Source of the DNA: a virus
Virus record (IMG/VR): IMGVR_UViG_3300008120_006071
Span: 1 to 53,541 of that record
Strand: one strand, 5' to 3'
Length of the DNA: 53,541 nucleotides
The notes under the pieces were generated by a model. That model searched no databases and was not told the origin of the DNA. It saw nothing but the letters and a program-made list of their open reading frames with translations. This document shows, piece by piece, positions 16,001 to 45,982 of the stretch. Within the stretch, counting starts at the first letter, position 1. Each line of letters starts with the position of its first letter. The position numbers and the translations under genes are program-made.

Positions 16001-19000
16001 TTTCTACCCTCTACACTGTAAAGTATAGTAGCATAAGTAGGAGTGTTTCCTATTGCAACATACTTGCTTCCATCATATACTATACTTTTTATGTCGATTT
16101 CATTTGGATAAAACGGTTGTCCCTGTAAATTGACATCTATATCAATATTCTGATCAAACTTATTACCTAAATATGTTCCGTTAGGGTATTCTAATCCTGA
16201 TAAGAGTAAAGGTAAATGTTTACCTGGCATATTACTAGTAGGTTCATAATAAGTTACTATTCTATCTAATGCATTTATGTAAGGATAGTCACTTTGTAGA
16301 AGTTCCCACTTCGTAAAATCAAATGTTAGATCAGAGTTTGATTCTATACATTTGTATAACTTATTGTTGTATGCTACCAATGATGCAGATGGGGAGGTGA
16401 AAGGTTCTGGATAGAATCCAAAATCACCAACCGCAAAAATAAACGGTCTAGCAATTGTATTTTTAACTGGATCAGTTAAAATAGAATTGTTATATAGTCT
16501 ACATTGTGTTGTGTTTATTGGCACTGTATAATATTCTGCGTATGCATTTGAGCAAATTCCACTCAGTGAGTAGAAAATTATTTCTCCTAAAAGTGCGAAA
16601 GTGACTGTAATTACTAAATCATTAGCAGGTGTTGTGCCTCCTAATAAGTTTCCTGCTATTGTAATAGTGTCCCCAGTAGAGTATATGTTACCAAAATCCT
16701 TAACATCAACAGAGTATTCATTAAGCACAGTTGTACCATAAATTCTAGGACTTGTAACCCATATGATTGCACCACCTGAACCAGAATCGTCATAAACATA
16801 CGGTGTTGTTAATCTTGCTGTTTTATAGAAATATATTTTAACATTTTTTAAGTACCCAGGAGTTAATGAACTATCATTGTAATTAAAGGTTACAATAACA
16901 TTATTAGTTCCTGATTCAGTAGTAACTGCTGATATCGGTACTGTTGCCCCTTGTAAACTTGACCTAAATACAGTTGACGGTATACCTTCAGTAGTAAATT
17001 CTATAATGCTACCAAAAACTGATATTTGTGTAACTGTTATAGTGCAACTATTAGTTGGTGCAACTCCACCTAACGAAGCACCAGAAATAGTTATTACATC
17101 TCCTATTTGATAATTTAAACCGCCGCTGTTTAAATTAGCTGTGTAAACTCCATATGTATCTCCTGAAGAATAAAAATAAGGCGGCTCATCTTCATTTCCG
17201 TAGATCCATGCAAAAACATCAAATATAGCTCCTGTACCTCCTGCTGGTGCTACAGGTCCAGTAACCGAAGTATAAGGTAATGCTGTAGCTAATTTACTAG
17301 CATAACTTGCATCATTTCCAATACTATTGTAATCTGCTATATAAAACTGATTTGGCTCCCATACCTGCACTGTAGGTCTATAACTAGTCCTATCAAATTT
17401 TAAGAATGGCGTTATCTGTCTTGTTGGTGCATTACTTGATATCGGTGCTAATCTTGCACCAAGTGAAAGAATATGGTTATTGCTGTTGGTTCTAGCTTTG
17501 ACAATACTCAATCTGTGTCTATCAGTTATTGCATTTATTTTAGATCCATAAAAAGCTATTGCAGTTGGCCTATCTTCGTTTGTGATAGTTACCTCAGGTT
17601 TATCCAATCCATATTCAATTAATCTGATGTAATAGTATTCTTTATCAATTAATCCTAAGATAGGAAGAGTGTTTTCTCCCTTTCTATATTGTAATAAATC
17701 ACCAGTTTCAAATAATTTAAATGGTACATTTATTGTATAGTTTGTAAAATTTACATCTGTAGAGTTAAACTTATGTTCAATCGCAGGTTCTACTATTAAT
17801 TCAGGTAATACTTTATACCCTTCACCTGAATTTGATACAGTAATTGCCACTACCTCTCCGCCGGATAATTGAGCTTTTAGTGCTGCTTGTACTTTAGGGG
17901 CAGGGAACACCGAGGTGTCTACATATGTTATAATATTAGGAGGTTCTGTGTAGGCTCTGCCAGAATAAAGCACACTAACAGCAGGAAGGTCTATAAAAAT
18001 TTTAGATCCAGGCATGTGATCAATAACTTCAGTATCAAGTGCGCCTCTTGTTAGACCTGATAATATTCCTGCATCTCTATCGACATTAGTGTAACCAATA
18101 AATTCGTCATCAATTTTGATGACACCAATAACTGGATAACCAAATGCGTTATCAACAACTATAATTTTTGTTGCTACAGGCACATATTCTTTTAATAAGC
18201 CAATAAAGTAATTTGGTCTTCCCTCTAGTTTTACTCCATAGTTATTAAACCATTGGTTGTACTGAGGTTTTTGCCATATTGCATCAGTTGACTGATACTG
18301 AGAAGGCAATAACGAATCATTGAAAACTAATTCAGGTGTTACAAAAGAATTTAAAGTTTCATTCCACTGTGCCGGTAAATCAAAATCTGTGATATCTCCG
18401 TCATATAAGTTAGTTTTAGTATATTTCAAACTAAATTCTTTAAGTTTTACTCTGTACGGCTTAACTTCATTAATGTATCCAAATAGAAAATCTTCGTTAT
18501 CACGTTGGAAATTTTTAGTTTGTTCTAGTTCTCTTAACGTATGGTCTACATCTAAGAATGAAGTTTTATTTAACCAAGGTAAGTAATTTCCGAATTGATC
18601 GCTTTCCGTAATAATATACTGGAATAATAAAATTAATCCTTGATTTCTATAGATTAATAAATCATCAGTAAACACTTCTTCGTTTAGTCCACGGATTATA
18701 TAATAGGTTTCTAGTGACGGGAAACTATCATATACATCATTATCAAAGAAACTATCACCAAATCCAATACCATTAATAGTATAATCCCAAAGAGAATTTT
18801 TTATTTGTATTGTACCTAATTCTAATCCTATTCTATTCCAACCATTATTTCTATAAATGTATACTTCACGTTTGCCATTGCTATTTGAATTAACTCCTGC
18901 TATCATATTTTCGAAAGTAGTTAACTTGTCTAAATCATAATATTTTGGCACATCTATGTCTGTGCGTGTTGCATCAGAATAACCTTGTTCCCACCAATTA

Positions 19001-22000
19001 ACATATTCCCAGTAATCATTAGTGTCAAAATTATCACCTGATAATGTGAAAAATGCCGGAGCATTTGCTCCTGTAAGAGCTACACCACCTAAAGATAAGA
19101 AACTAGGATTTTTTAATTCTGTGATAGGATACTTTAACATAATCCCATTTGCAAATTCACAATAGTTTTGCAATGCTGTTAATCTATTATAGAAAAAGCT
19201 TTGATTAGGTCTAAGGCTCGTGCCTGTTTGTAAAAGTTTAGGTAAGAAAGGATTAGGGACAGCCTGACCTTGAGCATCGACACCAGCAAAGCTATCTAAT
19301 AATTTTTGATATAAGCCATCAGGTCTAACAAGATTATTGTATAATGTAGGTAATCCAGGTAAGAAATCTTCTGCGTATCCGTCTCTGATTAATTTAAATT
19401 CAGTGTGTGCTACATCATCACCTGTACTTGATTTAAAGCCTAAATGTAAACTTGTAAAATTAGAACTTATATATTCATAGACATTATAAAGTCCGAAAAC
19501 GTTTTGTTTTAGCGGAGCTAAGAATGCAATACCTGATGATATTGGGTTAGCAATGTAGGCGGAAACGATATTATCTGAAAGTGTTTTGTTTCTACCTATA
19601 ACTGTACCAACATTTTTTACCCAATAGTAATATCGTGTTACTATAGTGCCACCGTCAACAACTTCATAGAGTGTTGTATAACTATCAATGTCATACACCG
19701 ATCCTATTCCTACATAATTAATAGGTGTTACATCACTTTCAATCCAAGTATATACTGATACTACGCTACCAGGAAATACGGATCCCCAATATTTACTGTT
19801 ATACAATGTATCATTTTGGTGATAATCAATGAACTTTGTCTGAGATGTGTCAAACCATAACTTACCAATATATTCTTGTCCCCAAACTACTTTTCCTGTA
19901 GTGGAATTATTATATCCTGCAGGATCAACACTTGAAATATAATCAAGATTTTCTCTTACTGCTCCTAATAGTTTACCTTGTAATGGATCAATATAATCTA
20001 AATTTACAATAGTTAAATTATTCAAATTGTTGTAAATTGACACAACATGAAGTTTTTCAATGTCTACAGTTTGTTCTGGGCTTCTATAAACAGACCAATT
20101 TGATTTAGTAACATCATTTCTAAAAATGTTTACTCTACCATTCTGACTGCCTGTTAAGTAAGTAGGGGAACCAATAAGCACGTTATAATTATTAAATGCT
20201 ATATTATTTCCATAATATGGTGCATTTCCTAAAGTTGTTGTCGTGTCATTTAAAAGTTGTGCTAATACAAATTTTCCAATGTTATCGATGCTTTCATTAT
20301 ATGCACCTAAATAATCATATAGGTATGCTGATCCTGCATCTACAACGACATCTATAAATGAAGTGAAGTTATTATCAAATATAGTATCATTAGTATAATC
20401 TTCATCATCTGTAAAATCAAAAGTAGTTTGCGTATATCTATTACTTGTAGGCGCGGTTACTACGAATGAATTTAATTCATTAAATTTAATTGCAGTTCCA
20501 TATTGTGTTGCATTTTGTAAATTAGGATCATGCAATTCTTGTGTTTTAGTGTAATACGTTATGCCCAAACTAGCAAAATCTGCTTGAACAAAGACTGTTA
20601 GATTTAATTTGTCACCTGATAAATTTAAATTTTGATTAATTAATTGTATTATTAATTTATTATCATCGGTTTTAGAAGCCTGTACATTTGGAATATTTGC
20701 TTCATTTATTGCGGTAATTGCTGTATCTATACCGGTACTCGGCAAGGTTACCATAAAGCTGTTGATTAAAACATTTATTGAAGTTGATAAGGTGTATACG
20801 CTTGACCCTGTAATTATTCCGAATTTTTTACCAGCGTTTGTATATCTATAAACACTTCCTTCTGTGCCTGTACTATTAACTATGTCGAATGGGGAACCAA
20901 TTAGTAATTCGTTACCTGCATTGTTTGCGTCTAATCCTTGACCGTATAGAATTCCTACTCTAGGACTAGCAACTTCAGTGTGTCCAACCAAAGTTTGAGA
21001 TAGAACAAAGTCATTACCTTCAACTGTTATTAAATCTCCTGCACTAATTTTAACATTTATTGTTAGTACATTAGACGCTACAGAATAACTGCTTGAAGGT
21101 AAAATGTCTCCATTTAAAAATACTGTGATAGAATTAACTGGGGTCCAAGCTAATGTAAAATCAGTTGGTAGTGTTTGAATTGCAGTAAATCTACTTTCAA
21201 ATGTTTGCTTAATTCTGTCGTAAATGTAAACAGCTCCGGTGTCTGTTACCGCACTAAAATCTTGATTAGGTGCGCTTACAAATAGTTGAGTAGCATTGCT
21301 ATTTGTTGCAATATTTTTACCAAAATTTGTAGCTGACCCTGATCCAGTGATAGTAGCTACACTAGTGTAATTGTAGTATGCTCTATAGACTGCAGTGCCT
21401 GCCGCAACACCTGCAAAAAAGTAACCATCAATTGTAAATGTTGTTCTATTAGACGAAACATTATATTCACCGGTTATAACTTTATAAGTTTGAGCAGTAT
21501 CAGCATTAGAAAAACTAACCATTTGTCCTTCTAATAATAACGATCTTCTGTCACCACTTACAGTAAATTGTGTACCATTCTGTTGTATAGCTGTTACTAA
21601 AGAATAACCTATACTTGTGTAGGTTAAATACGTATTTTTTCTATATACAAATACTTGTCTAGTTGAACCCTTTCCAACAAAGAAATAGTTGCAATCATCA
21701 GACATAACAACTTTGTCTGTGACTCCACTTATGCTAAATGAATTCTGTAATGCAACTGCCTCTATTTTATTTGTTTGCACAAGTTCGTAGACATAAACTC
21801 TACTTGTTGATGCAGATTTTAAAACTGTTAGGAAGTTTTGTTGCTTGTCCATACTAGCACCAAACCCAACTGGGCTTGATGATAAGGTTATAGTTTCTTC
21901 AAGATTCCAAAAATTTATATTAGGAACGTACTTGTATCGATACACATTTCCAGCACCAGAATCTGCTAAGAAATATCCTAAATTAGCATCGTAAGCAACA

Positions 22001-25000
22001 CTGCTACCAAACGTAGTAGTTGGTGTTGGTTTACTAAAAGAAGTTGCTCCTACATAATTGATTGCTTTTCTATATACTGCCCATGTACCATCTGTGTTTT
22101 CATCTACCCAAACAGTGCTTTTAACAAATTCTGTATCAAGTAAATTTAAAGTTGATATATCTTTTGGTGAATTTACTCGTTGATTCTGTAGCTTAGCTAC
22201 GATTCCACTAGATTCAACATTTGATATAGAAAGAGGTAAACTTAAATCAATAACTATAGAATTTATACTATTGATTTTAATTACAATATAAAATCCATCG
22301 ACAAAGTTTGAATAATTTAAAATCAGTATTACATCATTTACTGTTAACCCATGTGGCTTGTCAAAAAACACGGTACACGTATTATTTAAATTGTTAACAA
22401 CATTAGTTAATGTTACAAACGAATTCGAATTACCCAATGAAACAGTTGCATATGCTTTCCAGTCTCCCTTAAAATCTGCTATCCATATGTACTCATTTTT
22501 GTAAATGTCATATATGGAAACTGAATTTTGATTTAAGGTAGTGACTTTATATGAATGTGCTTTTACGTCATCAAAATTTACATAACCTGCTGATGGCAAC
22601 TGGTTCATTTTGTAAGACGGTAATAACGGTAATATTCTTACGTCTTGTGGAACTCTACCATAATTTGACAGTCCATATATAGGTATCTCTTGCATTGAAC
22701 CTGGTTCACCTATACCGTTTATAATACTTACGATAGCAGGATTACCATTTAATTTCTGTTCTTCTAACTTAAACTCAATGAAGTTTTGATTTAAAAGACC
22801 GCCATAATTGCCAATATTAATCGCCCAATTTTCATACGTGGTGTAATTTATTCCGCCTGTTTGTAGTGTAATATTCTGTATCGCTGACGTAGCTTGTTTG
22901 CTACCCTTTTCAACGATCATAGTTTTATAAAGATTAACCTGAGAAATGTCATCTAAATTAGCAGCAGCTAAATAATTTCTTGGTCTGTATCCAATTAGAG
23001 AAAAGGCTAATAGGTCTGCATCGTTTTCTAAATTGGCTTTATATGAATCATAATATAATGTACTTTCAAAGGCTCTGCTACTTGCATTAGGCAATAATCC
23101 TTTTTGTATATCTTCATAATCCACTTTAGTCCAAAGCCCTTGTTGGAAAGTATCGGCAGGTTGTATAACTTCATTAGCTGCGTAATAATTATTTTTATAT
23201 TTTACAATAACACCTTTAGTATATTTTACATTTGATTGCCATTCTAAGATATTATCTTGATTTAAAATAAATCCTTTAGTATCAACTGTGCCGTCCCATG
23301 TTGCTGTTTTAGAGCCTTTTAACAATATACGATATTGTCTTAATCCTGTGTTAGGATCATATATTAAATCATTGAATAATGTAGCATTGTCAAATATAAT
23401 AGCATGTTCGATGTTGCTTAAATTTGCATTAAAGTACGAAACGGTATCATCAACTTTTAATGGAACAGCAGAAAATTCAACTCCGTTACGAATTACTGAC
23501 ATATCCTTTATTTGTATTGGTATTAAATTTTGATTCAATACATAGTTTTGATCTTGAATAGTTAACGGTTGTACAATTGCATTTTCTTTAGAAATTACAA
23601 TTTTCTGAGCTAATGGATTTATATTTAATATAGATCCTGATTCCCAACCTGCTTGTACCCAAGCAAGAACTTCTTGAATCATTTGATTCCAATTTAAAAG
23701 TAAATTGTTTTCAACCTGATCAAATAAAAGTCCCTGTGTACCTAAATAATTTCCATAGGCGTTAATAAATTCTGATAGTGCCTGAGGTGTATTAAATTCA
23801 GTGCTGTATGGCACAACAACTACTTTATCACTAAAGTTTTTAGAAAGTTTAACAGAAAGAGATCCAGATGTTATTGTATTGTACTTTCCATTTACTATGG
23901 GGGCTGAGGCTTTAAAATATATCTTATTTTGACTATTACCAAAAACTTGATATCCAGTTTCAGTTTTCTGAATTATAACAGAACTGTATGTTATGGTGTC
24001 AAATGGTTGATTTTCATGTAATATTACTCTGTAACTCTCGTCAGGAATCAACAAACTATTATTTTTACTATTTGGAGATCCTTTATCAACATAAAATTTA
24101 AGTAAATCTTTATCACTAAATCCTGCTACTCTATATACCAATCTAACATCTAAGTTGTTTAGGTAGTCGGTTAAAATGTCATAACCTGAATTACCATTAC
24201 TTTGAACATAATCTACTACCCAATTTAAATAACTATGCTGGGCGTTACCGCTGCCGTAAACAACCGCTCCTATAGTGCTGAATCTGAATTTGTCATTTAG
24301 TAAGTATTGATTAAACTCTGTATTAAACTTATAAGTGTCTAGATTTTCCCCTAATGCGAAGAACTTAGCTGGCTTACACAACGCTAGTAATTTCACTAAA
24401 TCAAATGGCCATGAACTGCTTTTTAAATAGCTGTATTCTGCAGGTCCCCAATCGCCAACTTTCCATTGTGTTTGGAATGTTAGCTGATCATAATTACCAA
24501 TAACAGAATTCATAGGATCAACTAGATTTCCTAAATCATCTACAGGTAAAACTTGTAATAGACCAGGTCTCTTTCTAGATTCGATTATAATAGGATCTCC
24601 GTTATTATAATCGTATCCATTTTCCATATCAGTCCATAGCACCAAGTTATTCTTAGTATAAGGAGCTGCACCATAATAACTATCCCACCAAACTGGCTTG
24701 TTAGTATATCCAATCATTTCCCAAGGAGTACTATTGGGGGTAGTAGTATCAAAGAACCAATTATATAATCCTCTCCAATTACCTCTTTTTACGATTGTAT
24801 TATCTAATCTGTTCGTAGCTTGATAGTAATTGTAGGTGTAAGCATTATTAGTAAGGTAATACTGTGACTTATAGTCTATTCTATTTTGGCCTATCCAGTT
24901 TAAAAATGATAAAGAGTATAGTTGTAAAATTTCATCATAATTGTAATTTGTTGATCTGAATTGTCCAGGTAATACTTCATCACTTGAAATAGGAATCTTG

Positions 25001-28000
25001 CTGCTTACTTTTAAATTGTTATAAATTCTACATTCAAATTCAAATATAACCTGATCTCTGTAGTCATTCAAATATCCATTTGTATAATTTCCATATAATC
25101 TAGTTAACGAACCGTCATGTCCTTTAATAAACCAAGCAGGATTAATATAAGAGGTATCATAAACTATTTCAGGAATAGTTGCAGGATAGAATCCTAATTT
25201 GGTTGGTGTGTTTGGTACGTAGCTTCCATAAGTTTGATTGTACTCGTTGACTATTATTATATCACCTGCAATTAAATCAGTATAAAGAGTAACTAATGGA
25301 GCGTCTGCGCTTACCAAATAATCTACATCTTTAATAAGTTGTCTTTCAAATACTAATCCATTTTCTGTTCTTTGTAGGTATAATAATACCCCATCATAAT
25401 TTGCTGAAGTGAAATCATAAATTTTACTTAATGTGAACTGTGCCTGTAGAACATCCGCATTAAATGTATATCTATTGGTTATGTAGGCTCCGCGACTCGG
25501 TAGCATATCTGACCAAAAGAATGAATTATTTTGAGCCTTGAATGATGTTATTTCATTAATAGCGTTATCTAAAATAACCGAAGCTATTTGATAGCTTTCA
25601 TAAGGAGTTTTATTTACTACATCAATAAGTAAATTTTTAAATTTAATGTATTCGGTTGAACTAAAATTTAAAGAATCAATTAAATTAAAATTCGCATTTT
25701 TTAACAAAGCTCCAGTAAGAGATAACGGAGCACTGTTTTGAATTATCTTACTACCGTATTTTACTAGATTTGGTAAATCTCTGTAATTGTTAGATCCAAA
25801 AATTTGACCTACTATTCGTTTACTGTTTGTACAAATACTTAAGTAATGATTTTTTATATCACCTAAATTTAAATTTGAGATTTGTGCATTAAAAATATTA
25901 TTTTCTAAGTTAGTAGGTATAGTAAAATAAGCAGTTTTGCTTACTGAGTTACTATAAATTAAAACTTCGATTGGTGTTTCTAATATTGGATTTGCATTTA
26001 ACGTCACAATTGTAGAATTGTTTTCAACTGTAAAAGTAAAATCACTGTCGAATAGAAGATTGTCACCTACGTAAACTTTAACCACTGGCCATGCAGTAGA
26101 GTCAGTCGAATTGGCAGGCACATCACAAATAAAAATAGCATTTCCGTTTTGCGGAATATAATTAAAGGTGAATGCTTGATATTGAATACTTTCAGAAATC
26201 GCAGTTTGCCAACCTAGTTGTCTAGTATATTCTTCCCTAGAAGTAAAAATATATGGATAGCCTTGATTAACGTTTTGTACTGTAGGATTTCCATTTAATA
26301 CATATGTAAACTGGTCTGTGTTAAATGATACATTAAATTGGATATCACCTACGTTATCCACAGAGCTATATTTTAACGGGAAACCTAACACTGTATCATT
26401 ATTTCCTGTTCCTGTTGCGTACTGAAATAATGACGATCCTATAAAGCTGCTACTAGCGTAATAGTCTGTATCACCAAAACTTAGTCCATTATTGTCAAAA
26501 ACATCAAATAAAGGTGGCTGATTTACTGTAGTTTTAAGTTGTCCTTGTATCCAATTTATTCCATCAAACCAATAACTGAAGCCTTTTCTATTTTCTCCAA
26601 GCAACACTACGATCTGATCATAATTTTGAATATCACCGTCAGCTATTTTAGTTAATGTAATTATAGGTGGTGATTGAGATAGTAATACATTTCCTGTTCC
26701 GTTATCTAGTTGAATGAAAGAAGATAGATTAGGATCAGTGCTTAACCGTATTGAAGTCGAATTTGGTTTATCGTAAACATAATATTTTGTAAAGGCTGTT
26801 AAATTACCTATATCCTGATTTAACGATACTAAACTACCAACAACAAACTTTGTTGAATCTGTTACTGTCACTCTGTCATTCGATGCAGTAGTAACACTTG
26901 CTATAGTCGATGTTTGATTAGCAATTGAGGTTGAAACAAAATTGACGCGGAATATTTTATTTTTAATATTAGTGTCAGTATCAGCAGAAAAAATTACCTT
27001 ACATCCATCAAAAAGTCCAAAACTTGATCCATCTGGATAATATTGCAATTGATTTGCTACTTGAGTGAATGCGTCGGTAGCGGTTACATCAAAATAATCA
27101 ACCGGACCTTTAGCCTCTGTGCCTAAATTAAATAATTTTAAATTTGGATAAAATTCAATAATTGGTCTTTTTGCTCTTGCCTCTTTACTGTTTATGATAT
27201 TAAGTAAATTAGTACTATTAGTATGCTTTATTGTTTCCTGTATTACTTGAGCGTGAAACCATCTATTACCACGTGACCATGCATTTAAATTAGTTGCTGC
27301 TCTATTAATAGTAATATAATCCGGTGTTATAGGCGATTCAACAATATCAGAATAAGGTGCAGTATCATATGGTGAAGCATCATATGGTTCATACACACTT
27401 TGTGAATAAGATTCGGGTGTTACTAGTAAGGAGCTAGGTATTAATTTTATTCCTGTACCAACACCCTCAACATAATACTGATCGGTCTTATATTTTTCAG
27501 GAATGACATCTCCTGAAAAATTAATTTTTAATCCATTCGTAAATTTAACATTATTCGGTGATGTGTAACTTAGTTTACCTAAAATTTCTGTCTCTACGTT
27601 GATGAAGTTGGCAGTGTTACTGTCAACAATTTTTATCACTCCGAACTTTCTAAGATTAGAGCTATCTTGATAATACAAAACATCTAATGGAGCTGTTAAT
27701 TCAGGTATAAGTTGTATTTCTCCTGTGCTTAAACGAACTAATTTTTTGGATATATACTTATTTCCTGCTAACACAGTGATGTTTGTATTTTGCGGGATGA
27801 CAGTTAAAGGAGAAAGATTAATTATTGGGTCTCCAGGAGTATCAGTTTGAATATAGTTTATTTTGAAAAAATACTGATTAACGTTTACTAAATCAGTAGA
27901 GTCGAATCCAAACGGTGCTATAGTATCATTATCAAATCCATACTCATCAAAGAAGGTGTCCACTGATGCATTTTGTAATGCAGGTGCTCCAAAAAATATT

Positions 28001-28869
28001 AAAGTTTTATCAAGTAAATTTGTTGCACCGTCGATACTACCAATAGTACTTAATCTTTGACCGTGTATACCGCTAAATGGTTGATCACTGACAAGGTCAG
28101 TATTAACATTACCTTGATAGTTTTGATTCTGTTGCGCATCTGAATTAGGAACTTGGAATGTAATTACACCCTCAGAAGTTCCGTTATTTTCAACTCCAAA
28201 AATATCCCTAGTACCAACGTTTGGTCTGTTTGGTACGGTTCCAGATAAACCTGGCTCTGTTTGAATCCAAAACTTAGATGTTTGATCTACGTTAAAATAA
28301 TACGTGCCGCCTCGAAGCAGTGTAATGGTAGGATTAAATTCTTCTATTTCAAAATTATCTTGTACAAATAAAAATTCATTAGTTTGACTCACTACATCAA
28401 AAAATGAAGTTAGGTTAATCGGTAATGGTTCTATGTTAACTACGTCAGGACCAAAAGGTAACCAGTAATACTGGCTGTAGTTAGATATTTTGTCAAGGTT
28501 TGTAAAGCTATCCCAACTATAGAACTGGTTATCAAATAAAAGTGAGTTATTTGTTACTGGTGCTCCTTGTAATTTTAGAGCATCAATCATTTCGGGGTAG
28601 CTAATAAAATCTAAAGCGGTAGTTGTGTCTTTCTTTTTAAATACAACCGCTGGTTCTAATTGATAATCTGTTCTTGTTTTATTAATTTCAGGTATATAAT
28701 ATGAATTAGGAGTAAGACCATATTCAAATCGTCTGCCGATATAACCTTGAAGTTTTTCTAAATCTTGTTGTTGTACAAGTTGATCCAACGTGGCGGATAA
28801 GAAATTTTCATTAGGTGTTGTCTTAAAAATTTCTGGAAGAAAATCAATTGTTCTTACTTTTGCTACCAT
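13024..28869 (-). CDS. giant baseplate-locus structural protein, 5,281 aa
   Basis: One uninterrupted frame of 15.8 kb, directly after gp6 (12 bases), the place that gp7 holds in T4 (about 1,000 aa there). The N-terminus (TIDFLPEIFKTTPNENFLSATLDQL) and NAWSRGNRWFHAQVI near residue 530 resemble very large structural proteins of marine T4-like phages. Residues about 2270-2920 hold FG-GAP-like beta-propeller repeats (FGSSVAYD, FGKNIATNSNATQLFVSAPN, GAVYIYDR, YGNNIAFNNYNVLIGSP). Residues about 4260-4590 hold Asp-box/BNR-like propeller repeats (LISYDGFSWV, LLSYDGTTWS, LYSGDGEVWN). Two LGG..P.N.. ITV units lie near 3930 and 4075, and two GE/DE.I.(Y/F)..GLTRGA.GT units near 3590 and 5205. No signal peptide is seen. 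A baseplate-wedge or peripheral tail role is inferred from position; the gp7 equivalence is only positional. Confidence 0.75.
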   Translation of the reverse strand: MVAKVRTIDFLPEIFKTTPNENFLSATLDQLVQQQDLEKLQGYIGRRFEYGLTPNSYYIPEINKTRTDYQLEPAVVFKKKDTTTALDFISYPEMIDALKLQGAPVTNNSLLFDNQFYSWDSFTNLDKISNYSQYYWLPFGPDVVNIEPLPINLTSFFDVVSQTNEFLFVQDNFEIEEFNPTITLLRGGTYYFNVDQTSKFWIQTEPGLSGTVPNRPNVGTRDIFGVENNGTSEGVITFQVPNSDAQQNQNYQGNVNTDLVSDQPFSGIHGQRLSTIGSIDGATNLLDKTLIFFGAPALQNASVDTFFDEYGFDNDTIAPFGFDSTDLVNVNQYFFKINYIQTDTPGDPIINLSPLTVIPQNTNITVLAGNKYISKKLVRLSTGEIQLIPELTAPLDVLYYQDSSNLRKFGVIKIVDSNTANFINVETEILGKLSYTSPNNVKFTNGLKINFSGDVIPEKYKTDQYYVEGVGTGIKLIPSSLLVTPESYSQSVYEPYDASPYDTAPYSDIVESPITPDYITINRAATNLNAWSRGNRWFHAQVIQETIKHTNSTNLLNIINSKEARAKRPIIEFYPNLKLFNLGTEAKGPVDYFDVTATDAFTQVANQLQYYPDGSSFGLFDGCKVIFSADTDTNIKNKIFRVNFVSTSIANQTSTIASVTTASNDRVTVTDSTKFVVGSLVSLNQDIGNLTAFTKYYVYDKPNSTSIRLSTDPNLSSFIQLDNGTGNVLLSQSPPIITLTKIADGDIQNYDQIVVLLGENRKGFSYWFDGINWIQGQLKTTVNQPPLFDVFDNNGLSFGDTDYYASSSFIGSSLFQYATGTGNNDTVLGFPLKYSSVDNVGDIQFNVSFNTDQFTYVLNGNPTVQNVNQGYPYIFTSREEYTRQLGWQTAISESIQYQAFTFNYIPQNGNAIFICDVPANSTDSTAWPVVKVYVGDNLLFDSDFTFTVENNSTIVTLNANPILETPIEVLIYSNSVSKTAYFTIPTNLENNIFNAQISNLNLGDIKNHYLSICTNSKRIVGQIFGSNNYRDLPNLVKYGSKIIQNSAPLSLTGALLKNANFNLIDSLNFSSTEYIKFKNLLIDVVNKTPYESYQIASVILDNAINEITSFKAQNNSFFWSDMLPSRGAYITNRYTFNADVLQAQFTLSKIYDFTSANYDGVLLYLQRTENGLVFERQLIKDVDYLVSADAPLVTLYTDLIAGDIIIVNEYNQTYGSYVPNTPTKLGFYPATIPEIVYDTSYINPAWFIKGHDGSLTRLYGNYTNGYLNDYRDQVIFEFECRIYNNLKVSSKIPISSDEVLPGQFRSTNYNYDEILQLYSLSFLNWIGQNRIDYKSQYYLTNNAYTYNYYQATNRLDNTIVKRGNWRGLYNWFFDTTTPNSTPWEMIGYTNKPVWWDSYYGAAPYTKNNLVLWTDMENGYDYNNGDPIIIESRKRPGLLQVLPVDDLGNLVDPMNSVIGNYDQLTFQTQWKVGDWGPAEYSYLKSSSWPFDLVKLLALCKPAKFFALGENLDTYKFNTEFNQYLLNDKFRFSTIGAVVYGSGNAQHSYLNWVVDYVQSNGNSGYDILTDYLNNLDVRLVYRVAGFSDKDLLKFYVDKGSPNSKNNSLLIPDESYRVILHENQPFDTITYSSVIIQKTETGYQVFGNSQNKIYFKASAPIVNGKYNTITSGSLSVKLSKNFSDKVVVVPYSTEFNTPQALSEFINAYGNYLGTQGLLFDQVENNLLLNWNQMIQEVLAWVQAGWESGSILNINPLAQKIVISKENAIVQPLTIQDQNYVLNQNLIPIQIKDMSVIRNGVEFSAVPLKVDDTVSYFNANLSNIEHAIIFDNATLFNDLIYDPNTGLRQYRILLKGSKTATWDGTVDTKGFILNQDNILEWQSNVKYTKGVIVKYKNNYYAANEVIQPADTFQQGLWTKVDYEDIQKGLLPNASSRAFESTLYYDSYKANLENDADLLAFSLIGYRPRNYLAAANLDDISQVNLYKTMIVEKGSKQATSAIQNITLQTGGINYTTYENWAINIGNYGGLLNQNFIEFKLEEQKLNGNPAIVSIINGIGEPGSMQEIPIYGLSNYGRVPQDVRILPLLPSYKMNQLPSAGYVNFDDVKAHSYKVTTLNQNSVSIYDIYKNEYIWIADFKGDWKAYATVSLGNSNSFVTLTNVVNNLNNTCTVFFDKPHGLTVNDVILILNYSNFVDGFYIVIKINSINSIVIDLSLPLSISNVESSGIVAKLQNQRVNSPKDISTLNLLDTEFVKSTVWVDENTDGTWAVYRKAINYVGATSFSKPTPTTTFGSSVAYDANLGYFLADSGAGNVYRYKYVPNINFWNLEETITLSSSPVGFGASMDKQQNFLTVLKSASTSRVYVYELVQTNKIEAVALQNSFSISGVTDKVVMSDDCNYFFVGKGSTRQVFVYRKNTYLTYTSIGYSLVTAIQQNGTQFTVSGDRRSLLLEGQMVSFSNADTAQTYKVITGEYNVSSNRTTFTIDGYFFAGVAAGTAVYRAYYNYTSVATITGSGSATNFGKNIATNSNATQLFVSAPNQDFSAVTDTGAVYIYDRIKQTFESRFTAIQTLPTDFTLAWTPVNSITVFLNGDILPSSSYSVASNVLTINVKISAGDLITVEGNDFVLSQTLVGHTEVASPRVGILYGQGLDANNAGNELLIGSPFDIVNSTGTEGSVYRYTNAGKKFGIITGSSVYTLSTSINVLINSFMVTLPSTGIDTAITAINEANIPNVQASKTDDNKLIIQLINQNLNLSGDKLNLTVFVQADFASLGITYYTKTQELHDPNLQNATQYGTAIKFNELNSFVVTAPTSNRYTQTTFDFTDDEDYTNDTIFDNNFTSFIDVVVDAGSAYLYDYLGAYNESIDNIGKFVLAQLLNDTTTTLGNAPYYGNNIAFNNYNVLIGSPTYLTGSQNGRVNIFRNDVTKSNWSVYRSPEQTVDIEKLHVVSIYNNLNNLTIVNLDYIDPLQGKLLGAVRENLDYISSVDPAGYNNSTTGKVVWGQEYIGKLWFDTSQTKFIDYHQNDTLYNSKYWGSVFPGSVVSVYTWIESDVTPINYVGIGSVYDIDSYTTLYEVVDGGTIVTRYYYWVKNVGTVIGRNKTLSDNIVSAYIANPISSGIAFLAPLKQNVFGLYNVYEYISSNFTSLHLGFKSSTGDDVAHTEFKLIRDGYAEDFLPGLPTLYNNLVRPDGLYQKLLDSFAGVDAQGQAVPNPFLPKLLQTGTSLRPNQSFFYNRLTALQNYCEFANGIMLKYPITELKNPSFLSLGGVALTGANAPAFFTLSGDNFDTNDYWEYVNWWEQGYSDATRTDIDVPKYYDLDKLTTFENMIAGVNSNSNGKREVYIYRNNGWNRIGLELGTIQIKNSLWDYTINGIGFGDSFFDNDVYDSFPSLETYYIIRGLNEEVFTDDLLIYRNQGLILLFQYIITESDQFGNYLPWLNKTSFLDVDHTLRELEQTKNFQRDNEDFLFGYINEVKPYRVKLKEFSLKYTKTNLYDGDITDFDLPAQWNETLNSFVTPELVFNDSLLPSQYQSTDAIWQKPQYNQWFNNYGVKLEGRPNYFIGLLKEYVPVATKIIVVDNAFGYPVIGVIKIDDEFIGYTNVDRDAGILSGLTRGALDTEVIDHMPGSKIFIDLPAVSVLYSGRAYTEPPNIITYVDTSVFPAPKVQAALKAQLSGGEVVAITVSNSGEGYKVLPELIVEPAIEHKFNSTDVNFTNYTINVPFKLFETGDLLQYRKGENTLPILGLIDKEYYYIRLIEYGLDKPEVTITNEDRPTAIAFYGSKINAITDRHRLSIVKARTNSNNHILSLGARLAPISSNAPTRQITPFLKFDRTSYRPTVQVWEPNQFYIADYNSIGNDASYASKLATALPYTSVTGPVAPAGGTGAIFDVFAWIYGNEDEPPYFYSSGDTYGVYTANLNSGGLNYQIGDVITISGASLGGVAPTNSCTITVTQISVFGSIIEFTTEGIPSTVFRSSLQGATVPISAVTTESGTNNVIVTFNYNDSSLTPGYLKNVKIYFYKTARLTTPYVYDDSGSGGAIIWVTSPRIYGTTVLNEYSVDVKDFGNIYSTGDTITIAGNLLGGTTPANDLVITVTFALLGEIIFYSLSGICSNAYAEYYTVPINTTQCRLYNNSILTDPVKNTIARPFIFAVGDFGFYPEPFTSPSASLVAYNNKLYKCIESNSDLTFDFTKWELLQSDYPYINALDRIVTYYEPTSNMPGKHLPLLLSGLEYPNGTYLGNKFDQNIDIDVNLQGQPFYPNEIDIKSIVYDGSKYVAIGNTPTYATILYSVEGRNWSFKKISDVPINVTSLIYSGSFFVITAQNSSAPLLISYDGFSWVSAGSYTVFDDAPFDVTDFDTLSVETPNDELNGIVYYNNNYVAVGNNVLTSLNATSWGVGYSFQSQLPNTLRAVTYVAGSSIIFEGYVAVGSGTSIIDGANSPSPVFAEQSRILLSYDGTTWSNTNQTIDAVFNTVFSSNSKIVAAGDSAKIYWSVNASNWNIATILGPAITNKINHGIFALDTYIIIGDNGLVLYSGDGEVWNQTAAISTNNLNEITFDGTYLIVVGENSTILRSRNVIDWENISFLVTGDPEYVVQGETFLSGYGPEEMIPAVITDNLQMVVKTTPGSLWDPTVYENFGFNIVGVTIDTGNATEFSFAGLSPYVTQIAVYIVSNSNTRATRIYSVSEVPTVTSLTRIQSIDWVNKTVTLTSQLNSTENIYVECYDIGGGNQQVKGTSDTTPIKLDTEKNISYIDTNYPYRELFYQYPVVYLNGVKQVENTNYKLEPNVSNSIKIVFTTVLNPATNYISFAIFGPTTTNQYQYCMPETQVFQYTSGPKTFTLTNSMSGVNPSNAVVEVNGIRARNTTDYTIVGTTLTVLASLSATNIVSVTSFNDTQNQSFVTQTSTTIRVTPIYYVNTPATPVVVTTAINAVLINQDQVLIDGAQNIPEINNNIFYVRVLPTYVENAVTYYRYELYLDVNLSIPVVGNTYGSYYINGEGSGGYIWKYSDTIQLTQPTFDVVDVNRLFVHINGTRVTPDNLRINQPNNRLSIMSPISLGNTIIVTSYMPSPTPNELWYSLSVNRKGEMTIANSNIQNRTWLLEPLYPTDISISVNDVSKLVDITYEIIRASYNNTTKKLYCFLNYNIIDIVLLTVYNVTTDVELAKTAYYLNTVNSTTEVIFTAGVEDGDELEFTLRFGDTVIINGEKITFRGINLEENTITNIVRGAEGTAVLPVHEIYSNVLSLSTKDILDSFYYDKVWNSDDYSASGDPLQISNSIPANFLKSD

Positions 28870-40688: not shown

Positions 40689-41705
40689 ATGACAAATTTA
40701 TTCAAGAAGGCAGCAGTATTCACAGATATACATTTTGGTTTAAAGTCAAATAGTTTACAACACAATCAAGATTGTGAAAAGTTTGTAGATTGGTTTATCT
40801 CTCAAGCAAAGAAAGAAGGGTGTGAGACTTGTTTCTTCTTGGGAGATTATAACCATCATCGTGCTAGTATTAACATTCATACCATGCAATATGGTCTTAG
40901 GGCACTAGAAAAACTAAATGATAACTTTGATAAAGTATATTTTATTCCAGGCAATCATGATCTTTATTATCGTGATCGCAGGGATATTCACAGTGTTGAA
41001 TGGGCTAAGCATTTACCAAATGTTGAAATAATCAACGACTGGTACATAACAAAAGATGTTGTTATTGCTCCTTGGTTAGTCCAAGAAGATTGGAAACGAT
41101 TACAGAAGTTAGGTGGCAAATATTTATTCGGACATTTTGAATTACCTCGTTTCTATATGAATGCTATGGTTGAAATGCCTGATCATGGTGAACTCAACGA
41201 TCAACATATGGTCGGATTTGAAAAAGTTTTTACTGGACATTTTCATAAACGTCAAGCACGTAATAATGTTTGGTATATCGGCAATGCTTTCCCGCATAAC
41301 TATGCAGATGCAGGTGATGATGCACGTGGTATGATGATTCTACCATACGGTGGAGAGCCTGAGTTTCATAGTTGGCCTGATCAACCTAAATATCGTGTCC
41401 ATAAACTAAGTGACATATTAGAAAATCCTGCGGGCTTGCTTATAAAAGACAGTCATGTTAGAGTTCATTTAGATATTGATATCAGTTATGAAGAAGCTAA
41501 TTTTATTCGTGAAACATTGATTCCAGAACATAAACTGCGTGAAATGGCACTCATACCTATGAAATTAGATCAAGTATCAAATGATATCAATGCAGGAGAA
41601 TTAAAATTTGAATCTGTTGATCAAATCGTGCTAGATCAAATTGGTGCGATAGAGAGCGACTTTTACGATAAAAAATTGTTGTTGGAGATTTATAGAAACA
41701 TATGA
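40689..41705 (+). CDS. gp47: recombination endonuclease subunit gp47 (Mre11-like)
   Basis: Calcineurin-type phosphoesterase with the full set of metal motifs: DIHFG (Asp13, His15), GDYNHH, PGNHD, GHFE and TGHFHKR. These coordinate two Mn ions in Mre11/SbcD/gp47. At 338 aa it equals T4 gp47 in length. With gp46 it makes the nuclease that resects ends for phage recombination-dependent replication. Its stop overlaps the gp46 start (ATGA at 41702-41705), so the two are translationally coupled. The start is set by the strong promoter just upstream. No defect is seen in this gene, although its partner gp46 is broken. Confidence 0.9.
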   Translation: MTNLFKKAAVFTDIHFGLKSNSLQHNQDCEKFVDWFISQAKKEGCETCFFLGDYNHHRASINIHTMQYGLRALEKLNDNFDKVYFIPGNHDLYYRDRRDIHSVEWAKHLPNVEIINDWYITKDVVIAPWLVQEDWKRLQKLGGKYLFGHFELPRFYMNAMVEMPDHGELNDQHMVGFEKVFTGHFHKRQARNNVWYIGNAFPHNYADAGDDARGMMILPYGGEPEFHSWPDQPKYRVHKLSDILENPAGLLIKDSHVRVHLDIDISYEEANFIRETLIPEHKLREMALIPMKLDQVSNDINAGELKFESVDQIVLDQIGAIESDFYDKKLLLEIYRNI

Positions 41706-43468
41706 TTCAATTAAAAAATATAACATTACGTAACTTTCTAAGCATAGGTGCTGTAACACAGGCTGTTAATTTTGATCGCACAGACCTCACTCTTATATTG
41801 GGTGAGAATTTAGACTTAGGTGGGGACGGTGCTCGTAACGGCACAGGTAAAACTACACTTATTCAAGGACTTTGTTACGCATTGTTCGGCAGTCCAATCA
41901 ATAACATTCGCAAAGATAATTTAGTAAACAGAACAAACGGTAAGGGTATGTTGGTTACTCTAGAGTTCTCTGTGAATGGTATTGACTATAAAATTGAACG
42001 TGGTCGTAAGCCAAATCTACTACGTTTTTATACAAACAATGAACAAATTTCAAAAGATGACGCACAAGGTGAGAATAAAGAAACACAAATAGCGATTGAA
42101 AAAGTAATTCACATGAGCCTAGATATGTTTAAGCACATTGTTGCCTTAAACACATATAGTGAAAGAAACACAAATAGCGATTGAAAAAGTAATTCACATG
42201 AGCCTAGATATGTTTAAGCACATTGTTGCCTTAAACACATATAGTGAACCTTTTCTTGCTATGAAAGCAAATGATCAACGTAACATTATTGAACAATTGC
42301 TTGGCATTACATTACTCAGTGAAAAAGCAGAATCAATAAAACAGTTAATCAAAGATTCAAAAGATAACATTCAGCAAGAAGAATTTAAAATCAAAGCTAT
42401 TGAAGAGGCAAACAAAAGAGTAAAAGAACAGATTGATGCACTTAAACGTAGACAAACTCTTTGGAAGCAAAAACATGAAGCAGATACAGAATCGCTGATG
42501 AATCAATGGCTAGAGCTTCATAACGTAGACATTGTTGCTGAATTACAGGCACACAAAGACTTAGCGGCATATAATAATAAAGTTAAAGAAAAAACAGAAT
42601 TACAAAAATGGTTAACAAGTGCTGAACTTGACCTTACTAAAGAAACAAAACAATTAGAAAAATTAAAATTAGAAGTTGAAAAATTACAAAAGCACGAATG
42701 TTACGCATGTGGTCAGACTATGCATGATGAAAAACATATAGAAGTTTTAGCAAGTAAAGAAAAAGCACTTCAAGAGGCGGCACTACAGGTTCTTACAACA
42801 TCAGGTGAAATTGAAACACTGAGTAATCAAATAACTGATTTGGGTGAGATAGGTATAATGCCTAAATGTTTTTATGATACAGAACAACTAGCATTTGAAC
42901 ACGCTAATAAGATGACCAGCTTAGAAGAATACATTAGAAAAAAAGCAGAAGAAACTGATCCTTATTTAGAACAAATTACTGATATGGAAAATCAAGCTTT
43001 GCAAACTATTGATTTTAATAATATTAATGTACTTACTAGAATAATGGAACATCAAAAGTTTTTACTTGATTTATTAACTAGTAAAGATAGTTACCACATC
43101 AAGTAATATTTTTAAATGATTTAAGTGTAGAAATAACAGAACTAGGTCGTGAGTTAGACTTTGACAATTTATCACGTGGTGAACGTAATAGATTGATATT
43201 AGGGTTAAGTTTCGCTTTTCGTGATGTTTGGGAAAACTTATATGTCCCAATTAACACATTGTTTATTGACGAATTGATTGATAGTGGACTTGATACTATG
43301 GGAGTTGAGAATAGTATTGCTATTCTTAAAGATATGAGCCGTCGTAGGCAAAAATCTATTTGGCTTGTATCACACAGAGAAGAACTAGCGGGAAGAGTAC
43401 CTAGCGTATTAAAAGTTATTAAAGAAAACGGATTTACAAGTTATAACACAGCAGTGGACGTGGAATGA
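41702..43468 (+). pseudogene. gp46: gp46 (Rad50-like ATPase), interrupted by a duplication and a deletion
   Basis: Three pieces in two frames. Piece 1 (41702-42184) has the N-terminal lobe and Walker A GDGARNGTGKTT (Lys50). Piece 2 (through 43106) has coiled coil and zinc-hook CYACGQ. Piece 3 (from 43091) has LSRGERNRLILGLSFAFRD (signature) and NTLFIDELIDSGLD (Walker B), ending at 43468. Frame 1 is lost through an exact 85-bp tandem duplication (42079-42163 repeated at 42164-42248). At about 43088-43091 the sequence jumps from LLTSKDS to LPHQVIFLNDLS, skipping the ~25-residue helix that normally joins coiled coil and C-lobe, and this returns to the first frame. Each lesion alone breaks the gene. 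Either it is a true pseudogene, or both are assembly errors; the neighbouring genes are intact. Confidence 0.85.
42079..42248 (+). repeat. 85-bp exact tandem duplication inside gp46
   Basis: The 85-base unit starting AGAAACACAAATAGC and ending CATATAGTGAA occurs twice head to tail with no mismatch. Two further A residues on the left also match, giving 87 matching bases at an offset of 85. Since 85 is not a multiple of three, it shifts the gp46 frame, and the first copy runs into a stop at 42182-42184. Confidence 0.95.
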
Positions 43469-43954: not shown

Positions 43955-44491
43955 ATGATAAGTAAACACATGCCTTCACCACAAAAAGCAAAAGGATCAG
44001 GATTTGAGCGAGAGATAGCTAAATATCTCAGCGATGTGTACGGAGAAAGTTTTATTCGTGCGCCTGGCTCTGGTGCTTACATAGGAGGCAAGAACCAAAA
44101 TCGCACACAAATTTTGCATGAGGGTCAAATTCGTAGCTTTAAGGGTGATATAGTGCCCGGCGAAAGTTTCCCAAAGTTTAATGCAGAATGTAAATTCTAC
44201 AGCGATTTTTCATTTCATTTGTTACTTAATGGAGAACATAAAGTACTTGATAGTTGGTTAGAACAACTACTTGCTGTTGCAGATCCCGGCATAGGAAGAT
44301 ATGTAGCTGTACAATGCAAATTTACATGGATTACTGATAACTTCTTTTTTTACGGAAGTAAAAGATTTGGTGATTGGTATGTTATGGAGTTTGACACATT
44401 CATGAAGCAAAACAAAGATATCATTAAGGCATATTCAGGCAAATCAACAGACACCACGTCACCAGACTCAATTTTAACAATTTCAATTTAA
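43955..44491 (+). CDS. PD-(D/E)XK nuclease, Holliday-junction-resolvase-like
   Basis: KGSGFEREIAKYLSDVYG supplies an early Glu (18/20). SFKGDIVPG has Asp65, and NAECKFY has Glu78 and Lys80, which is the E...D...ExK core of a PD-(D/E)XK nuclease. APGSGAYIGGKNQNR lies between, as in archaeal-type resolvases. Length is 178 aa. It starts one base after the stop of the nucleotidase and is the last gene of the gp55-side plus-strand run. A recombination or DNA-processing role fits its neighbours gp47 and gp46. A restriction-type or homing nuclease cannot be excluded. Confidence 0.7.
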   Translation: MISKHMPSPQKAKGSGFEREIAKYLSDVYGESFIRAPGSGAYIGGKNQNRTQILHEGQIRSFKGDIVPGESFPKFNAECKFYSDFSFHLLLNGEHKVLDSWLEQLLAVADPGIGRYVAVQCKFTWITDNFFFYGSKRFGDWYVMEFDTFMKQNKDIIKAYSGKSTDTTSPDSILTISI

Positions 44492-44927
44492 TCAAGTAAT
44501 TACAATTTGACGACCGAGTTGTCGGTCCTCCTTGAGGACGTACAGGTAGTGCTGTGCTGACGGATCTGGAGTATGCTTAGGAGTGATCCTAAGGAATACC
44601 GATAGGGCAATCGTGTGGAGCGAACCCTAAATGAGTTCATAGTTTACTTTGTCTTGCGACTATGAAACATGCGTTGCTGATGGCTAAGGCTATCACTACA
44701 GTCCCAATAAACTTTACAGAGCAACCGGTAGCACATAACAGCGAAAGGGCTAGTTATGTGGGGAATAGACAACATGGGTGACGGTCATGGCAAGTACCTT
44801 TACCATTGGTAGTGCTGAATAGCACTACCATGGCTTCTAATCGGCAATATCTAAATAATAATAATCCCGAGTATATGAACGAACGAAGTGAGTGAATAAC
44901 GAAGGGATTAGATGAACGCAGTTCATC
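44492..44927 (+). ncRNA. putative large structured RNA, family not recognised
   Basis: No gene fits this 436-base gap, but it is packed with perfect stems. GACCGA/TCGGTC lies at 44512-44527. CTTAGGA-GTGA-TCCTAAG is closed by GTAT/ATAC (44571-44599). TAGGG/CCCTA spans 44603-44629. A 9-bp stem with one bulge covers 44635-44668, and GATGGC/GCTATC lies at 44679-44694. CACATAAC/GTTATGTG has an inner AGC/GCT (44732-44760). GGTAGTGCT/AGCACTACC is extended by CCAT/ATGG (44803-44833). TAATCCC/GGGATTA spans 44862-44910, and GATGAAC/GTTCATC 44911-44927. The GTGA loop is a GNRA tetraloop only on the plus strand, which favours that strand. The start is about half G+C, against roughly a third around it. 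It is not a tRNA, and the RNase P and tmRNA conserved segments are not seen. Candidates to test are GOLLD/ROOL/HEARO-type RNAs or an intron relic. Confidence 0.6.
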
Positions 44928-45104
44928 TTAAAAGAATGGAATGTTTGTTTTCTTAGTTGTTTCTAAGTTTTCTTCAATAATTTCATTTAATGAAGCCGTT
45001 TCTGCTGGACTCATGTTTAAAACATCTGTATAACTAACGGAGCCACGCATATACCAAGCTATTCTTTGTGCGTTTTTCTTAATAGCTTTGCACTCCTTTT
45101 CCAT
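44928..45104 (-). CDS. gp51: small gp51-like baseplate hub assembly protein, 58 aa
   Basis: A 58-codon frame from ATG at 45104. The core AWYMRGSVSYTDVLNMSPAE, then a helix and ENLETTKKTNIPFF, is the pattern of the short protein that follows gp26 in marine T4-like phages, annotated as gp51, the hub assembly catalyst. The match is from memory. It is shorter than T4 gp51 (249 aa), so functional equivalence is not proven. It lies 47 bases after gp26 on the same strand, with GGGAAG upstream as a weak ribosome site. Its stop is directly against the last hairpin of the structured RNA region. Confidence 0.7.
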   Translation of the reverse strand: MEKECKAIKKNAQRIAWYMRGSVSYTDVLNMSPAETASLNEIIEENLETTKKTNIPFF

Positions 45105-45151
45105 TCCGTCTATCAGCTTCCCAATACCCTCGGAGTCAAGGTATAGAAGCC

Positions 45152-45982
45152 TTAGACGAAAAAATCACTGACATTGAGTGTAAACATCTGGTCATAATCA
45201 TGTCCACAACCAACACATTTAACATTCAATGGTTTCATCTGAGTAGTTTCTCTTAAGCTCAAGCTTTTTTCTTTAATCTTTTCAACTATTCTTTTATCTG
45301 CATTCTGTAGGAAATCTAAAATATAAGCTTTTTCTGTTACAGTAAAATCATTACTTGATATGGAATCAACGGTGCTTGCAATTATGTCCAACGTGCTAAA
45401 TGCAATGGTCTTGAACAAATCGCTTGATTTTTTATCTTTTTCAGGACCATCATCCATTGCAGTTAACATTGCTAGGGCTTTTTGTATTTCAAATTGGCGG
45501 ACTGCATTTTCTGTTAATTCTTTATAATTCAATGGTCTGAATTTAATTTTTAAGTCGCCCATATTGATTGGGTTGGAATAATCACCAGCTACGAAATTAT
45601 TCAATATAAAGGATAAGTTTATTCCATATTTGAAATCTTCATCACATTTTGGACAATGTGTTTCAATCTCCATATCATTTCCATTTGTTGCTATCCTAAT
45701 TGCTACCAAAATCGCATCTAAGTCCGTGCTACTTATCTTCCATGGATCTTTGATCGCAGGCACACAACTTCTGATAATATCCGCTACTGCAGTACCGTTA
45801 TAAAGACTATCCGGAGTTTTACTAGTAATTTCATCAATTGCAGTCATTGGGTAAATTGGGATTTCCTCGTTTTCAGGCATAGAAATAACCTCCGCTGAAT
45901 AATCTAATCCCTTACTTGGCAACTTCAAATATATGCTAGGTCTACGGAAGTACTGCTTTAACGGGTTATTTTCTATTGACAT
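45152..45982 (-). CDS. gp26: baseplate hub subunit gp26
   Basis: The N-terminus (LKQYFRRPSIYLKLPSKGLDY) and PIYPMTAIDEITSKTPDSLYNGTAV match gp26-like baseplate hub proteins. A four-Cys zinc ribbon is split over the protein: HCPKC (Cys110, Cys113) and KCVGCG (Cys256, Cys259). Length is 276 aa against about 208 in T4. It has a GGAG Shine-Dalgarno and lies about 46 bases after a TCTAAATAT late box, divergent from the tape-measure genes. It is expected to act in hub assembly with gp51 and the tape measure. Confidence 0.8.
   Translation of the reverse strand: MSIENNPLKQYFRRPSIYLKLPSKGLDYSAEVISMPENEEIPIYPMTAIDEITSKTPDSLYNGTAVADIIRSCVPAIKDPWKISSTDLDAILVAIRIATNGNDMEIETHCPKCDEDFKYGINLSFILNNFVAGDYSNPINMGDLKIKFRPLNYKELTENAVRQFEIQKALAMLTAMDDGPEKDKKSSDLFKTIAFSTLDIIASTVDSISSNDFTVTEKAYILDFLQNADKRIVEKIKEKSLSLRETTQMKPLNVKCVGCGHDYDQMFTLNVSDFFV

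Follow-up and report, generated by a model that had tools for sequence, protein, structure and literature searches.

Covariation among homologs strongly supports that positions 44508–44927 (plus strand, ends approximate) of the window, by which the whole analyzed stretch of 53,541 nucleotides is meant, encode a folded and highly conserved plus-strand RNA of about 420–430 nt. On the basis of sequence comparison, this noncoding RNA, here called type A (59 distinct homologs; covariance model R1), belongs, as a divergent branch, to a superfamily that also contains an extended form of the Polynucleobacter-1 RNA (RF01718). New are the divergent branch itself, the full extent of Polynucleobacter-1, the linkage of these RNAs to nuclease genes and a pair of direct repeats that change in concert.

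Genomic Context of the RNA Locus

The portal protein of the record is closest to those of giant cultured myoviruses, namely Sinorhizobium phage Phosso, Xanthomonas XaC1 and Pseudomonas PA5oct (50–54% identity), and the genomes hosting the window RNA are those of uncultured giant T4-related phages. The RNA lies in an intergenic gap of 436 bases (44492–44927), which exactly fills the space from a nuclease gene's stop (44491) to that of a minus-strand gp51-like frame (44928). A previous sequence-only reading had described this gap as free of genes and as richer in G+C at its start, and both statements were confirmed: only short ORFs of 39–46 aa occur in the gap, the longest having 46 aa, and the G+C content is 0.46–0.47 at 44500–44799 vs about 0.31–0.40 in the surroundings. 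The predicted fold of the gap was also more stable than that of shuffled sequences, on either strand (z = -3.5, 0/100 shuffles). The dense array of hairpins on which the same reading had relied could not be upheld, since, counting perfect arms of at least 5 bases with loops of 3–12, the gap contains 4 hairpins, compared to a mean of 2.8 in dinucleotide shuffles (94/300 reach 4) and 4.6 for segments of 436 nt elsewhere on the contig. Hairpin density, being above neither control, was thus rejected as evidence.

The gene directly upstream (43955–44491, plus strand) codes for a PD-(D/E)XK nuclease (PDDEXK_15, RusA-like resolvase group; PF24608, phrog_244), a family assignment made on the intact homolog L001 (Pfam PDDEXK_15; PHROGs RusA-like resolvase). 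The window copy carries an in-frame deletion of 33 bases (11 residues) at 44280–44320, found neither in the near-identical L001 nor in other homologs, which is either natural or an assembly error.

No Rfam 15 family matched the RNA when the window was scanned with cmscan at gathering score and at E ≤ 10, RF01718 included, and ARAGORN found no tRNA within the window. RNase P, tmRNA, tRNA and 6S RNA, none of which the sequence-only reading had been able to fit, were likewise not found by these models, and GOLLD, ROOL, HEARO and group I/II introns, which it had named as further candidates, were part of the same scan. None of them gave a match.

Relatives of the nuclease in IMG/VR share the intergenic sequence, which can be aligned to about 65–72% identity. 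A pattern derived from the most conserved strand retrieved 74 stretches, and pooling these with the earlier loci gave 59 distinct homologs from uncultured phages. Outside of this collection, an exact-pattern search for type A in 84,980 bacterial and archaeal species genomes yielded no match, although an exact pattern can miss divergent copies, and blastn against 50,697 phage records found nothing over the RNA.

Predicted Fold and Covariation

In the core alignment A2 (32 distinct sequences, 57 pairs), 34 of the 57 core pairs changed on both sides, and the covariation score of 0.423 compares to 0.055–0.071 in six slid versions and 0.159 in shuffles. The full-length alignment A6 (33 sequences, 89 pairs) showed compensatory double changes in 53 of 89 pairs, with a score of 0.348 vs 0.043–0.086 in slid controls. 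The paired fractions of 96.7% of cells (A2) and 93.4% (A6) are favored values, because the structure was partly read from the same alignments. A structure-free scan of all column pairs placed helix pairs, PK1 among them, in most of the top ranks. Cells with G-U are more numerous than those with A-C (70 vs 13, and 48 vs 11 in a further count), which points to the plus strand as the RNA strand. The earlier proposal of a structured plus-strand RNA is thereby borne out, and the two checks it had named gave clear outcomes: the stems covary among homologs, with slid controls far lower, and no open frame runs across the region in 33 homologs (median longest open stretch 63 of about 150 codons). Indels and helix-preserving double changes in the homolog alignment disregard reading frames.

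The alignments show a predicted architecture in which a multibranched core is held by two pseudoknots and is followed by a 3′ domain of direct repeats and a hairpin and by a terminal hairpin; all parts lie on the plus strand. The 5′ hairpin is P1 (GACCGA/UCGGUC, 44512–44527), which is 63.6% paired with double changes in 5/6 pairs, the alignment being uncertain here. The 5′ domain is closed by P2 (CUCC/GGAG, 44528–44571; 100% paired) with its inner stem P2a (44540–44543/44554–44557; 85.6% paired), and type B loci, as read from their sequences, appear to have CACC/GGUG and similar at the P2 position. For the hairpin that comes next (CUUAGGA-GUGA-UCCUAAG, 44576–44593), a GTGA tetraloop had been pointed out; the GUGA loop on a 7-bp stem is indeed present, but the stem is variable and the GNRA character is not kept among homologs (GUGA, GCGA, UUAA, GCAA, and others).

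The multibranched core (44597–44730) is closed by P3, formed by UACCG (44597–44601) and CGGUA (44726–44730), which is 98% paired and whose outermost pair is U-A, C-G or U-G among homologs. It comprises P4 (UAGGG/CCCUA) with P4b (UCG/CGA; 44603–44629, 100% paired, outermost pair C-G in 14, G-C in 14 and U-A in 5 sequences), the P5/P5a hairpin (44631–44670; double changes in 9/10 pairs) and P6 (GUUGC/GCAAC, 44673–44725), which is supported by alignment and covariation and encloses a hairpin that varies as well as the conserved strand ACUACAGUCCCANNAAACNUUACAGAG. The loop of P5/P5a contains the 5′ strand of pseudoknot PK1 (UUGUCU, 44649–44654), which pairs with AGACAA at 44767–44772 and covaries between the type A variants UUGUCU/AGACAA, CUGUCU/AGACAG, CUAUCU/AGAUAG and UUAUCU/AGAUAA. 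Pseudoknot PK2 joins CCC (44703–44705) to GGG (44761–44763) and covaries as well, being changed to CUC/GAG in 3/32 sequences (L008, L036, L050). Between the core and the 3′ strands of both pseudoknots lies hairpin P7 (44732–44760; 99% paired, double changes in 9/10 pairs).

In the 3′ domain, the direct repeats GGUCAUGGCAAG (44783–44794) and AAUCGGCAAUA (44839–44849), both recognized by identity covariation, surround hairpin P8 (GGUAGUGC/GCACUACC, 44808–44829), which is nearly invariant in the full-length alignment. A long stem with a bulge had been claimed here, of which 10 perfect pairs (44807–44830) stand, whereas the extension past GGUAGUGC/GCACUACC is not general. P9 (AAUCCC/GGGAUU, 44863–44909) encloses the ACGAACGAAGUGAGUG hairpin and is 83% paired in a sparse alignment, and the 3′-terminal hairpin P10 (GAUGAAC/GUUCAUC, 44911–44927), which lies beside the gp51 stop and has no U-tract, is 100% paired with double changes in 6/7 pairs. 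A stretch of 30 bases around the GAACGAACGAAGTGAGTGAAT hairpin (44868–44897) matches one site per RB43-like enterobacterial phage (n = 59) at 93% (E 0.01); it is perhaps a shared palindromic element, or a chance match.

Concerted Direct Repeats

The strongest covariation of a non-Watson-Crick kind links 44785 with 44841, which carry identical letters (GG 15, UU 8, CC 6). In type C RNAs, the corresponding direct repeats are heptamers on either side of a hairpin, in the same layout as in the window RNA, and the two heptamers are identical to each other in 75/77 distinct RNAs compared to a mean of 18 and a maximum of 32 in shuffles, a contrast that is inflated by shared ancestry. Still, ancestry alone hardly accounts for seven versions (GGAUAAU, AGAUAAU, GGAUGAU, AGAUGAA, GAAUAAU, GGAUGAA, and AGAUGAU) that change in step. 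Pairing between direct repeats is impossible, and a search inside the RNA for a third partner column that follows them found none. Since the repeat heptamers were not enriched in the neighboring DNA either, no target was found there. We infer that an external partner recognizes the same element twice, once in each repeat.

Relation to Polynucleobacter-1

The type labels A, B, C, and D are those of this analysis; R1 is the covariance model of type A and R2 that of type C. R1 matched all 80 of the closest nuclease relatives (L097–L176) with E 5e-25 or better, always downstream of the nuclease and on the same strand. In a second set of nuclease relatives it matched 35/80 loci, and other loci carry diverged RNAs in the same slot. 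At locus L243, the RNA behind the nuclease matches RF01718 with 105.6 bits (E 5e-22). The original description (Weinberg et al., 2010; PMC2864571), the only mention found in the open-access library searched, places Polynucleobacter-1 in Burkholderiales and fresh water/estuary and lists it as probably cis-regulatory. A Polynucleobacter-1 pattern retrieved at least 120 stretches from IMG/VR, and an exact pattern of its core gave no match in the same 84,980 bacterial and archaeal species genomes, a search that divergent copies could escape. The Rfam model covers the first 141 nt only, and the RNAs run on to about 440 nt; judged from these stretches, the RF01718 family ends after the first third of the RNA and is mainly a phage RNA.

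For type C, the alignment A5, which covers the 3′ two thirds of the RNA in 38 sequences, gave a covariation score of 0.434 vs 0.065–0.105 in slid versions, and its fold has a 7-bp PK1, a PK2 and a third long-range helix. Types A and C have in common the order P4, P5 with the loop pseudoknot PK1, P6 with PK2, repeats around a hairpin, and terminal hairpins, and the covariation for this topology is independent in type A (A2, A6) and type C (A5). Type A differs by its extra P7 hairpin and by another repeat sequence. Polynucleobacter-1 shares with the window RNA the slot behind the same PDDEXK_15 nuclease (L222, L232, L236, L243), whereas its 5′ domain, the part covered by the Rfam model, is unlike that of the window RNA, and most of its RNAs stand behind a SegE-like gene.

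The two types are connected by type B. Its 5′ ends are detected, among the 33 loci searched, with a profile of the 5′ domain of type A (best E 7e-13, no off-target), and R2 finds type B in L231 (E 2e-14) and many other loci, including L016 and L017 (as L203 and L181/L182). R1 is marginal on type B (E 0.045 in L203), and R2 does not match the window RNA directly. As a direct match is not detectable, the kinship of A and C rests on the A-B-C chain together with shared topology and synteny. The sequence-only reading had proposed a candidate new RNA; Rfam indeed does not match it, but, being tied to RF01718 via intermediates, the RNA is not wholly new. Loci L185–L196 carry, in the same slot downstream of the nuclease, a type D candidate with the order GGTTAGTGGGCCAGTTT...CACATGATG...TACATGATG and direct repeats around a hairpin; R2 reaches only E 0.03 to 0.7 on these loci, so that type D is no more than a possible further branch.

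Linkage to Nuclease Genes

The upstream gene is co-oriented and close in 43/43 type A loci and in 75/75 usable type C loci (118/118 together). A PDDEXK_15 gene is missing from the locus of 77/80 Polynucleobacter-1 matches. About 66 of the upstream genes at the 75 type C loci are ORFs of 141–146 aa, and 19 of 23 inspected type C upstream proteins are SegE-like and of the GIY-YIG fold (PF19835, E 3.5e-32). The RNAs of type C that follow PDDEXK_15 (L222, L236, L232) reach scores similar to those of the SegE-linked ones, and in L301 the order SegE, RNA, gp51 reproduces the slot of the window. An additional gene lies between nuclease and RNA in L210 and L221, and in L302 and L356 the type C RNA has no adjoining nuclease and stands behind non-nuclease genes. 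Downstream, the neighbors vary between gp51, late structural genes behind TATAAATA, and others; at 35/75 type C loci (within L261–L380) the T4-type late promoter TATAAATA directly follows the terminal hairpin and precedes a structural-looking gene. In L368 and L378, the SegE-like gene has at its 3′ end, just ahead of the RNA, a larger GIY-YIG frame, which by its motif is of homing-endonuclease type.

Copy number was determined in 16 giant-phage records of 180–367 kb, chosen for carrying the RNA or the nuclease. R1 has one match (E 6e-42 or better) in 10/16 records, one of them with an extra fragment (E 0.006), while R2 matches once in each of 5 further records, two of these matches being weaker ones to type B, so that 15/16 records hold a single copy by either model. 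PDDEXK_15 is present in 13/16 records and a strong SegE match in the remaining 3, with weaker SegE-family matches of other frames in G002, G007, and G012; because the records were selected for RNA or nuclease, this exclusivity of the nucleases is suggestive, while the copy number was observed directly. The window RNA occurs in giant T4-related phages, as a single copy per record searched and with a strongly constrained core, and its branch lies wholly outside Rfam.

Among cultured phages, SCTP-2, PA5oct, Phosso, and Los1 have the same nuclease, but genes follow close behind it instead of the RNA, and the RNA was not found in cultured phages with SegE-like genes either. A blastn search of types A, B, and C against cultured phages returned merely short chance pieces, and covariance models gave no convincing match in 12 cultured phage records, the empty R2 result being of limited weight. 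Since either nuclease occurs in cultured relatives that lack the RNA, the latter is not needed for nuclease function generally.

Possible Modes of Action

We favor, at somewhat better than even chances, an independent RNA that is set free from nuclease transcripts, of which it forms the 3′ end, and acts in trans. As neither a promoter of its own nor a U-tract terminator was recognized by a scan of the locus, the RNA would be transcribed together with the nuclease gene and make up the last part of that transcript. It would then be freed by processing, or by transcription ending at its terminal hairpins, and would work in trans as an independent structured RNA, be it alone, as an RNP or as an oligomer, at the stage of infection when DNA is replicated and recombined. 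In this picture the pseudoknotted core, being conserved, would form the rigid working portion, and the two direct repeats would together bind a single external partner. Nearly the same RNA is kept across a change of nuclease fold, so it probably does not recognize the nuclease itself; it might rather serve the same process or transcription program. Large structured RNAs of bacteria and phages have repeatedly proved to be catalysts, regulators or giant RNA assemblies. That a widespread, hitherto unrecognized superfamily of nuclease-linked phage RNAs with multiple pseudoknots acts in trans via its concerted repeats, as a new phage RNA machine (RNP, ribozyme or oligomeric scaffold) for DNA processing or host takeover, is a more tentative proposal, which we hold at slightly less than even chances. 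The association of one RNA with two unrelated nucleases offers a concrete testable link, and the co-evolving direct repeats a concrete testable clue.

The persistence of the RNA through the nuclease swap leaves a role in cis as the main rival. The RNA would then stay attached to the nuclease mRNA as a 3′UTR element that controls its stability or expression by retroregulation and restrains a dangerous nuclease of any fold. Such an element would be just as constantly linked to the upstream gene, and at nearly all loci the RNA does lie immediately 3′ of a nuclease gene, in the same orientation; two unrelated nucleases are compatible with it, and Polynucleobacter-1 was listed as probably cis-regulatory (Weinberg et al., 2010; PMC2864571). 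However, about 430 nt with two or three pseudoknots far exceed what an RNase III hairpin needs, the loci with an intervening gene (L210, L221) or with the RNA behind non-nuclease genes (L302, L356) do not fit well, and the paired repeats suggest an external partner, which is why we consider the cis role rather unlikely, though clearly to be reckoned with.

The remaining explanations are weaker. Both nuclease folds, GIY-YIG and PD-(D/E)XK, occur among homing endonucleases, and it is conceivable that nuclease and RNA form, or stem from, an element of the homing or self-splicing-like kind, the RNA being spread by the nuclease; the SegE family name, the varied downstream genes adjoining the cassette and the homing-type GIY-YIG frame that runs into the end of the SegE gene in L368 and L378 would agree with this. 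We nevertheless regard it as improbable, as there is at most one full-length R1/R2 copy in each of the 16 giant-phage records, no group I/II intron, HEARO or other intron matched in Rfam (distant types included), cultured phages have both nucleases without the RNA, and no host gene is split at the site. Even less credible is a DNA-level element, such as a replication or packaging site or protein-binding repeats between convergent operons, whose inverted repeats merely resemble RNA stems: type A does sit between convergent genes, and the direct repeats could be DNA-binding sites, but the covarying pairs of PK1, PK2, and PK3 are not nested and cannot be cruciforms, G-U prevails over A-C in both counts, and the element always occupies the sense strand of the upstream gene, even when the downstream gene is co-directional. 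That the region is translated into a small or recoded peptide, to which the short ORFs of the gap could be taken to point, has a negligible probability considering the lack of a frame open across homologs and the indels and double changes that ignore frames. An RNA-guided nuclease was rejected, as close relatives (alignment A1) show no guide-like hypervariable segment.

Comparison With Known RNAs

Like GOLLD and ROOL, the window RNA is a large, phage-borne noncoding RNA with multiple pseudoknots and rich in covariation. It is smaller (about 430 nt), matches neither in sequence nor by covariance model, and is tied to nuclease genes instead of tRNA islands, the window being without tRNA; any structural kinship with them would be by analogy only. 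The lambda sib element, a short RNase III hairpin that acts as retroregulator behind int, is comparable in position only, as an RNA element directly 3′ of a gene for a DNA-cutting enzyme, whereas the RNA found here has about 430 nt, is pseudoknotted and is conserved across phages. The manA and wcaG RNAs of T4-like cyanophages, located in the 5′UTRs of metabolic genes, are likewise structured RNAs of T4-like phages found by comparative genomics; the window RNA, in contrast, lies behind a nuclease and matches neither of them in Rfam. As to the possible oligomeric state mentioned above, GOLLD and ROOL RNAs form oligomers (PMC12286853).

Further Observations in the Window

The convergent baseplate hub gene downstream of the RNA (gp51/gp26-like, T4_baseplate; PF12322, phrog_150; 44928–45982, minus strand) consists of two frames; an invariant T TTT TTC marks their junction and lies immediately ahead of the first frame's stop (45104–45160, minus strand). 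This junction was present in 12/12 sequences checked among the homologs L001–L017, including the distant L016 and L017, and a programmed -1 frameshift beside a tape-measure-like gene appears likely; the programmed frameshift of lambda G/GT, next to the tape-measure gene, is a parallel case. The gp46/SbcC-like gene (41702–43468) is broken into several frames in the window, compared to one frame of about 590 codons in L002, L004, L006, and L010, owing to indels, which are possibly sequencing errors in this contig. Finally, the minus strand carries an unusually large ORF of 5281 aa at 13024–28869.
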